A DNA stretch of 64,000 nucleotides. Origin: Thermococcus radiotolerans (GTDB lineage Archaea; Methanobacteriota_B; Thermococci; Thermococcales; Thermococcaceae). A program made the position numbers and the translations under genes. Below are positions 9,434 through 12,703 of this stretch, piece by piece. Below the pieces are notes generated by a model that saw only the letters and a list, made by a program, of their open reading frames with translations, was not told where the DNA came from and did no database searches. Location: the NCBI RefSeq assembly GCF_002214565.1, contig NZ_CP015106.1, positions 1,240,001 through 1,304,000 of the forward strand, written 5' to 3'. How positions within the stretch are numbered: position 1 is the first letter of the stretch; each line of letters starts with the position of its first letter.

Positions 9434-10870
<1,437 letters not shown>

Positions 10871-11713
10871 TCAGACCACCCCCCTGGACTCGAGGTAGTG
10901 CTTTTTGGCTATCTCCTGTTCGCGAACGAACCTGCTGTCACGCCTTATGACGTCGTCCCAGTCCACCTTGTGGGCGTCGAACATCGGCCCATCGCGGCAG
11001 GCGAACTTTATCTCGCCGTCGTAGAGTATCCTGCAGGAGCCGCACATGCCGGTTCCGTCCACCATTATCTGCCTGACGGTGACTATGGTCGGGATTCCGT
11101 ACTCCCTGGTCAGCTCGGCGAGCTTCTTGAGCGAGCCCAGCTTTCCGCCGCCGAAGACTATGTCGACCTTGTCCTTCTCGATGAGCTCCTTCAGAACGTC
11201 GAGGTAGTGTCCCTTGATTCCACGCGAGCCGTCCTCCGTGGTGAGGTAGTACTCATCGGCGACGGGCTTTGCCAGGAACTTCTCGGGGTAGGAGTGGGCC
11301 CTGTCCTCGAAGGTCTGGATGGAGATCGTGTAGTTTCCGGCCTCTTTCATCGCCTTGAGGGTGGCGTAGTTCTCGGCCTGACCGCAGACGGCGTCGGAGA
11401 CGAAGACGACGTTTCCGTAGTACTTGACCTCGATTGGCGTTCCGAGCGGGCCCGCGACCGCGTAGAGGGAATCGCCAACGTCGAAGTTGTCCCAGAGGTC
11501 AAAGCTGGTCTTTCCGTGCCTCCTGATGAACATTCCTATCCTTCCGGTCTCCCTGTCGGCGTAGTAAATGGACATTGGAATTCTCTCACCCTTCTTGTGT
11601 ATCAGCAAAACAACGAACTGACCCGGCTTCCAGGCCCTTGCCACGTGCGGTGCCTCGACCTCCATAAAGAAATCCCTAACATCCAGTTCTTCTTTTGCAG
11701 TAATTCGGTACAT
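10871..11713 (-). CDS. nfnS: Nfn small subunit NfnS (SudB/ferredoxin:NADP oxidoreductase)
   Basis: 280 residues; binds FAD and a 2Fe-2S cluster and takes NAD(H). The N-terminal FAD domain ends in IPMSIYYADRETG, the NAD domain has VFVSDAVCGQAENYATLKAM, and DIVFGGGKLGSLKKLAELT precedes the cluster-binding GMCGSCRILYDG ... FACRDGPMFD. In dihydroorotate dehydrogenase K-type relatives these Cys hold the 2Fe-2S centre. It is the first gene of the operon with nfnL. Its promoter region contains three GTTnnnAAC sites, two of them spaced as an extended SurR site. Confidence 0.88.
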   Translation of the reverse strand: MYRITAKEELDVRDFFMEVEAPHVARAWKPGQFVVLLIHKKGERIPMSIYYADRETGRIGMFIRRHGKTSFDLWDNFDVGDSLYAVAGPLGTPIEVKYYGNVVFVSDAVCGQAENYATLKAMKEAGNYTISIQTFEDRAHSYPEKFLAKPVADEYYLTTEDGSRGIKGHYLDVLKELIEKDKVDIVFGGGKLGSLKKLAELTREYGIPTIVTVRQIMVDGTGMCGSCRILYDGEIKFACRDGPMFDAHKVDWDDVIRRDSRFVREQEIAKKHYLESRGVV

Positions 11714-11756
11714 GGATGAAACCTCCCGTGCTAGTGAACAGCTTTGTTCACCTTTA

Positions 11757-11805
11757 GTTCTGAACTTTAGGTTTATAACAGTTTTTTAAACCAAAGGTTT
11801 AGAAC
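11757..11805. promoter_or_regulatory. Extended SurR-type binding sites upstream of nfnSL
   Basis: Three copies of GTTnnnAAC: GTTCTGAAC (11757-11765), GTTTATAAC (11771-11779) and GTTTAGAAC (11797-11805). The first two are separated by exactly 5 bases (TTTAG), which matches the extended SurR motif GTTn3AACn5GTT. The second overlaps the likely minus-strand TATA box (TTATAAAC). SurR is the redox and sulfur response regulator of Thermococcales. Confidence 0.7.
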
Positions 11806-11917: not shown

Positions 11918-12703
11918 ATGGTGGAGATACCGAAGAGCCACCCGCGCTACTGGAGCCTGTACTACAGGGAGAAGATCATCGAGGGAATGGAGAAGGGCAT
12001 GACGGCCAAGGCCGGGCTGATAGCCCACGGCCGCGGTGAGGCCTTCGACTACCTCATAGGGGAAAGGACGATAGAGCCTGCCGAGAGGGCGATGAAAGCC
12101 GCCGTCGCTAAGCTAATCCTGGCGAAGCACCCAGTTATCTCGGTCAACGGCAACGTCGCGGCACTCGTTCCAAAGGAGACGATAGAGCTGGCAAAAGCGC
12201 TAAACGCCAAGCTCGAGATAAACCTATTCTACCGCACGGAAGAGCGCGTTAGGGCGATAGCGGAGGAGCTGAGGAAGCACGACCCCGATGTGGAGCTCCT
12301 GGGAATAAACCCCACGAAGCGCATCCCCGGCTTGGAGCACGAGCGCGGAAAGGTTGACGAGGAGGGCATATGGAAGGCCGACGTGGTGGTCGTCCCGCTG
12401 GAGGACGGCGACAGAACGGAGGCCCTCGTCAGAATGGGTAAGTTCGTGATCACCGTTGACCTCAACCCGCTTTCCCGCTCGGCGAGGATGGCGGACATAA
12501 CGATAGTTGACAACATAGTCCGCGCGTATCCGAGAATGACTGAACTGGCCAGGGAGATGAAGGATTACAGCAGGGAGGAGCTTCTCGCGATACTGGAGGA
12601 ATACGACAACGGAAAAACGCTGAGCGACGTACTCGCACACATACGGGATAGGTTAACCAGGCTAGCCCAGGGTGGGGTGTGGCGCAAGGAGAGGTTGGAG
12701 TGA
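11918..12703 (+). CDS. 4-phosphopantoate--beta-alanine ligase (archaeal phosphopantothenate synthetase)
   Basis: 261 residues. Joins 4-phosphopantoate and beta-alanine with ATP in archaeal coenzyme A synthesis. The family signature is seen in [63 protein letters not shown] and [13 protein letters not shown]-like [10 protein letters not shown]. The ATG at 11918 follows AGGTGAT by 4 bases and fits the family N-terminus; a GTG 3 codons upstream is not needed. It reads away from nfnSL with its own TATA-like TTTTTAGC near 11881. Confidence 0.92.

Follow-up and report, generated by a model that had tools for sequence, protein, structure and literature searches.

A candidate two-sided SurR operator in the promoter of an nfnSL-type operon of Thermococcus radiotolerans

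Results

The nfnSL-type locus and its promoter

We analyzed a stretch of 64,000 nucleotides from the genome of Thermococcus radiotolerans (hereafter, the window), in which two adjacent minus-strand genes form an nfnSL-type operon (Table 1). The nfnS-like product scored 330 bits against NCBIfam NF004862 (cut-off 220); against structures in the Protein Data Bank (PDB) it scored 229 bits with 5jca_S (NfnI) and 198 bits with 5vj7_B. The nfnL-like product scored 726 bits against TIGR01316 (cut-off 472) and matched 5vj7_A (839 bits) better than 5jca_L (751 bits). The 204-base gap between nfnS and the divergent ligase gene holds three exact matches to the SurR motif GTTnnnAAC, located by a scan of the window at 11757-11765, 11771-11779, and 11797-11805, that is, within 49 bases, exactly as the initial annotation had reported.

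Table 1. Genes and promoter features of the nfnSL-type locus, in window coordinates.
Feature	Position	Strand	Remarks
nfnL-like large subunit	9434..10870	(-)	478 aa; directly 3' of nfnS
nfnS-like small subunit	10871..11713	(-)	280 aa; ATG at 11713; first gene of the operon
Second element, TGAACAAAGCTGTTCACTAGCAC	11728..11750	(-)	one mismatch to TGnnCAn4TGnnCAn2TGnnC; approximately from the start site to the ribosome-binding site
Downstream SurR site, GTTCAGAAC	11757..11765	(-)	5 bp after the TATA box
BRE (A-rich) and TATA box	11771..11788	(-)	TATAAAC at 11771-11777; assigned by eye
Upstream SurR site, extended, GTTCTAAACCTTTGGTT	11789..11805	(-)	spacer CTTTG; just upstream of BRE/TATA, activator position
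Divergent 4-phosphopantoate--beta-alanine ligase	11918..12703	(+)	ATG at 11918; NF041123 336 bits (cut-off 300)

Read toward nfnS on the minus strand, the promoter comprises the extended SurR site (11805-11789), the BRE, the TATA box (11777-11771), 5 bases, the downstream SurR site (11765-11757), a second conserved element (11750-11728), the ribosome-binding site, and the ATG; the BRE, TATA box, and ribosome-binding site were assigned by eye. The sites at 11757-11765 and 11771-11779 are separated by 5 bases, the n5 spacing that had been annotated for this pair, and the AAC of the TATA box together with the downstream site forms a reversed extended motif (11757-11773). The third match, 11797-11805, which had been listed as a third copy, lies inside the extended upstream site, so that all three GTTnnnAAC sites of the promoter are parts of extended matches. 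The middle site does overlap the TATA box as annotated, but it is the TATA box preceded by GT (GTTATAAAC), and the anatomy of the promoter had been inverted. Published data for T. kodakarensis give a median TATA-to-start distance of 23 bp, which would place the nfnS start near 11750 and therefore the downstream site between the TATA box and the start.

The small subunit belongs to neither the NfnI nor the Xfn group

To place this paralog, we used 94 Thermococcaceae genomes, 86 of which hold an NfnS relative at E <= 1e-40; the family was chosen because only one Thermococcus locus (L031) was found among the 80 matches listed for named genomes. The NfnS tree contained 109 rows: 61 genes in group A, which includes the NfnS of the window, 25 in group X, and 23 in group I. 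Xfn-type matches numbered more than 25, of which 25 were used. L194 was left out since no start codon was found, leaving 23 of the 24 nfnI-type rows, and L031 was left out since its upstream sequence is the same as that of L125.

Group A formed a branch of its own with support of 100/99. The group X branch (100/100) did not include the NfnS of the window, which also fell outside group I, itself weakly supported (75/63) and accompanied by a warning of long branches from the tree program. Bit scores were consistent with this placement: a group I NfnS (L174) reached 567 bits with 5jca_S and the group X copy of the same T. radiotolerans genome (L196) reached 535 bits with 5vj7_B, against 229 and 198 bits for the NfnS of the window. 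We take 5vj7 to be Xfn (NfnII) of P. furiosus. The small subunit is thus neither NfnI nor Xfn, and the large subunit has 5vj7_A rather than 5jca_L as its closer match. Since NfnS falls in neither group, electron bifurcation by this paralog is an assumption. No NfnI-type copy was found in the same genome at E <= 1e-40. The xfn-type paralog L196 (G000:C1:1166109-1166948) has SurR sites of its own, including one at 1166021-1166037.

The operon is probably the ortholog of T. kodakarensis FNOR2 (TK1684/TK1685), NfnIII. In T. kodakarensis the neighboring ligase gene is presumably TK1686, and one member of group A (L127, genome G024) is what we take to be the candidate FNOR2 locus; its promoter contains exactly one upstream and one downstream SurR site, and the ligase gene adjoins it. 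The T. radiotolerans promoter resembles this arrangement, with a SurR site on each side of the BRE/TATA and a ligase neighbor, and differs from it by a GT before the TATA box, which creates a third match and a second extended match across the TATA box.

The upstream site is the best conserved

Lone GTTnnnAAC matches in the window are uninformative, as they are not enriched: 13 were found against 8.35 expected, and at least 13 occurred in 14 of 100 shuffles. This could suggest that the cluster also consists of chance matches to a short palindrome in AT-rich DNA. However, neither three GTTnnnAAC within 49 bp nor the arrangement GTTn3AACn5GTTn3AAC appeared in any of 100 first-order Markov sequences of window length, and none of 20,000 single-base shuffles of the 125-bp promoter contained three sites. 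Across the whole genome (1,868,990 bases), the extended SurR motif matched 32 times and the reversed pattern 7 times, and the nfnS promoter holds 3 of these 32 matches. Among the 61 group A promoters, 117 short SurR sites were present against a shuffle mean of 2.5. With the simulations, the shuffles, and the conservation of the sites across the family all against it, a chance origin of the cluster is ruled out to near certainty.

Comparison of the orthologous promoters, which the initial annotation had suggested as a check, showed that the extended upstream site is exact in 59 of the 61 group A promoters and carries one mismatch in the other two (L147 and L156); L147 was left out of the promoter alignment (60 of 61 rows) and of nothing else. 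For the downstream site, 46 promoters match exactly, 10 differ at one position, and 5 at more; 38 show it in the form AACn5GTTn3AAC. These counts come from related genomes and are not independent. The copy that had been treated as a spare is therefore the best-conserved site, just upstream of the BRE/TATA. SurR sites precede this ferredoxin:NADP oxidoreductase across the Thermococcaceae examined, and their conservation reveals which of them evolution has preserved. On one strand or the other, 18 of the 23 promoters of group I and 18 of the 25 of group X likewise hold an extended site.

Six loci (L113, L114, and L120-L123) encode NfnS proteins 94-97% identical to that of the window; their downstream site carries one mismatch (GTCCTAAAC or GTCATAAAC) and their upstream site is intact. 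These loci offer a natural test of the roles of the two sites. Since the upstream site is exact in nearly all promoters and remains intact in these relatives, the strongest constraint falls on the site in the activator position.

The middle site is less widespread. TATAA is present in 59 of the 61 promoters and TATAAAC in 44, and the GT-prefixed form GTTATAAAC occurs in 12, which belong to two separate sets of rows. We slightly favor the view that the middle site is a mere TATA box that happens to follow GT, and that SurR acts through the outer pair, as in T. kodakarensis; two extra bases suffice to create the match, and the candidate T. kodakarensis locus has just the two outer sites. Against this, every one of the 6 rows in the subgroup of the window retains the prefix, as does each of the 6 group A rows from genus g4, although two chance gains are possible because the prefix is only two bases long.

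The ligase gene adjoins nfnS at 46 of the 61 group A loci, which raises the question of whether the SurR sites serve this divergent gene, or both genes. In the 15 loci without a ligase gene in the fetched flank, the upstream site is kept in all 15, and the distance from the site to nfnS is nearly constant. A main role for the ligase gene was rejected on the ligase-less loci, and we regard this explanation as very improbable; judging from these loci, the ligase neighbor is not needed for the SurR sites.

SurR is present and the spacer of its extended motif is constrained

The genome encodes SurR itself. An open reading frame (ORF) starting at about 791623, 49 bp after an extended site at 791557, scored 405 bits against NF047699 (cut-off 250), matched PDB entry 2qlz (PF0095), and carries the motif CTEC. 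A SurR with CxxC in the same genome, GTTn3AAC or GTTn3AACn5GTT in the promoter, and conservation in orthologs at a similar distance to the BRE/TATA (59 of 61 extended upstream sites exact) are thus all found together; the sites, their positions, their conservation, and the presence of SurR are direct observations. Other extended sites in the genome precede sulfhydrogenase II beta, hypA, hypC, a HypF-like ORF that we named by eye, thioredoxin reductase, three antiporter-E-like genes, and, at 1166021, the xfn-type paralog. Several of the extended matches fall inside ORFs, and some precede genes left unnamed.

Strong support for SurR control of the nfnSL operon comes from the conserved sites, the SurR gene, and published statements on the probable ortholog, FNOR2. 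The annotated link to the sulfur and redox switch holds on the basis of the sites, their conservation, and the SurR gene, but it was already known for FNOR2. SurR control of this operon is in print (Hidese et al. 2017; PMC8595942 Table 2), and T. radiotolerans is another member.

In the upstream sites of group A, the spacer of the extended motif has the form CnnnG in 53 of 61 promoters, 44 of which have CTTTG. Family-wide, the sharper motif GTTnnnAACCnnnGGTT matched 834 times in 94 genomes against 59 for the reversed control, with more matches than the control in 90 genomes and fewer in 2. Extended motifs with a spacer that neither begins with C nor ends with G matched 929 times against 762 (more in 54 genomes, fewer in 33). 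Only these two spacer classes were compared, and orthologous promoters were counted once per genome. The published n5 spacer thus behaves as CnnnG, and spacers with neither base are near background. In the nfnS promoter, the sharper form is found only at 11789-11805; the spacers of the downstream matches are TTTAG and CTAAA. A limited literature search, with subscription papers mostly outside it, found no earlier report of the CnnnG spacer. Searching with GTTnnnAACCnnnGGTT would spare genome annotations many false 'long' SurR sites.

Direction of SurR control

We propose that positions 11757-11805 form a two-sided SurR operator for this nfnSL-type, FNOR2-orthologous operon, acting on its minus-strand promoter. 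Without sulfur, reduced SurR would bind the extended site upstream of the BRE/TATA and stimulate transcription, and the site between the TATA box and the start, which borrows the end of the TATA box as a third half-site, would damp it. With sulfur, oxidised SurR would release the DNA. The net expectation is more NfnSL without sulfur, and the GT before the TATA box may strengthen the damping in T. radiotolerans. SurR binding, the direction of control, and the start site are inferred here from the sequence, and we consider upstream activation with downstream damping, and a net gain of NfnSL without sulfur, to be likely.

This scheme resembles what Hidese et al. (2017) are said to have described: each FNOR promoter reportedly has one upstream and one downstream SurR site, and in FNOR2 the upstream site enhances and the downstream site represses. 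In PMC12162507, SurR upstream of the TATA box is stated to activate and SurR downstream of it to repress, and in some cases, citing Hidese 2017, repression requires both upstream and downstream sites. In a table of PMC12016516, FNOR2 (TK1684/5) reaches higher abundance without sulfur, and FNOR1 (TK1325/6) shows the opposite response. According to PMC12401011, again citing Hidese 2017, FNOR2 is activated by reduced SurR bound at its promoter sites; part of the reduced SurR and FNOR2 activation persist even when sulfur is added, so the sulfur contrast may be small. PMC8595942 counts Nfn among the genes under negative control by SurR, which disagrees with the activation of FNOR2.

The opposite outcome, in which SurR mainly represses through a site on the TATA box and the operon is induced by sulfur, has several points in its favor: two matches lie at or downstream of the TATA box, the form overlapping the TATA box is found in 12 of 61 promoters, from two separate groups, PMC8595942 names Nfn as negatively controlled, and PMC12162507 describes promoters that need both sites for repression. 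On the other hand, the site in the activator position is better conserved (59 vs 46 of 61), the close relatives L113, L114, and L120-L123 lack only an exact downstream site, and FNOR2 is reported as activated (PMC12016516; PMC12401011). We therefore consider sulfur-induced expression through repression unlikely. The repression proposed in the initial annotation is at best half of the picture: negative control of Nfn in PMC8595942 speaks for it, and FNOR2 activation with more protein in the absence of sulfur speaks against it.

A two-sided operator with net activation can also be compared with other SurR promoters. As described in PMC12401011, SurR-activated mbh promoters likewise carry the motif upstream of the BRE/TATA and are activated when SurR is reduced; the nfnSL promoter adds a downstream site beside the TATA box. 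Table 2 of PMC8595942 lists SurR motifs for NfnI, NfnII/Xfn, and NfnIII of T. piezophilus, the same gene families as here. We tentatively identify genome G029 as T. piezophilus because the listed distances for NfnIII (42) and Xfn (44 and 72) fit its group A and group X genes, with two misfits to the table: the NfnI distance of 72 was not reproduced with the same counting, and the Xfn promoter of G029 has a third site. The NfnIII promoter of G029 (L140) also has an extended upstream SurR site, which is missing from the table, where NfnIII has one short motif.

A second conserved element shared with other metabolic genes

The second element follows the pattern TGnnCAn4TGnnCAn2TGnnC. It is exact in 31 of the 61 group A promoters and has at most one mismatch in 46; in the 25 group X promoters, the corresponding counts are 7 and 22. 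None of the 23 group I promoters contains it with up to two mismatches, a level reached by about 0.1 to 0.3% of shuffles. Across the 94 genomes, the element matched 130 times against 18 for the reversed pattern, with more matches in 66 genomes and fewer in 3. A variant with both spacers lengthened by one base also exceeded its reversed control (36 vs 15), so part of the excess is not specific to the spacing.

Of the 130 matches, 38 are nfn/xfn promoters in the tree set (31 group A, 7 group X), and we inspected 80 further stretches, covering most, not all, of the other 92. In these 80, 49 matches lie beside recurring genes: glyA (9), formate dehydrogenase alpha (8), a KaiC-like ATPase (5), an aminotransferase (4), a peptide-transporter-type permease (4), an ABC-type lipoprotein (3), xfn (3), an amino-acid-permease-like protein (3, with the L297 match inside the gene), hydrogenase I beta (2), gcvPA (2), and three other pairs (L233/L287, L238/L281, and L286/L294). 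Several of these sets are drawn from closely related genomes, whose common sequence adds no independent evidence. The other 31 matches lie inside an ORF or before no recurring gene; as they outnumber the 18 control matches, the control may underestimate the background. glyA and gcvPA pass the NCBIfam cut-offs, incomplete fdhA and hydB pieces score below them, and the aminotransferase, KaiC, permease, and lipoprotein names were given by eye. The element stands before the TATA box in glyA and after it in nfn, xfn, and fdh.

Its half-sites, TGnnCA, resemble those of Tar (TK0271), whose operator in PMC6737238 is TGGACA-N8-TGTCCA, upstream of the BRE/TATA of aromatic amino acid genes. Start to start, the Tar half-sites are 14 bases apart (PMC6737238), against 10 and 8 in the second element, and a Tar site at 11728-11750 was rejected on this difference in spacing. 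We give roughly even odds to the possibility that a second regulator acts on the nfnSL promoter through TGnnCAn4TGnnCAn2TGnnC, alongside the SurR sulfur switch. If so, this regulator would tie the NADPH/ferredoxin balance to amino-acid and one-carbon metabolism in Thermococcaceae, with xfn, formate dehydrogenase alpha, NADPH-dependent hydrogenase I, glyA, gcvPA, the aminotransferase, and peptide/amino-acid transport as candidate targets. No earlier report of the element was found in the same kind of limited literature search, with subscription papers mostly outside it. Other copies of the second element lie at G000:C1:1166073-1166095 and in L223, L231, and L239-L241.
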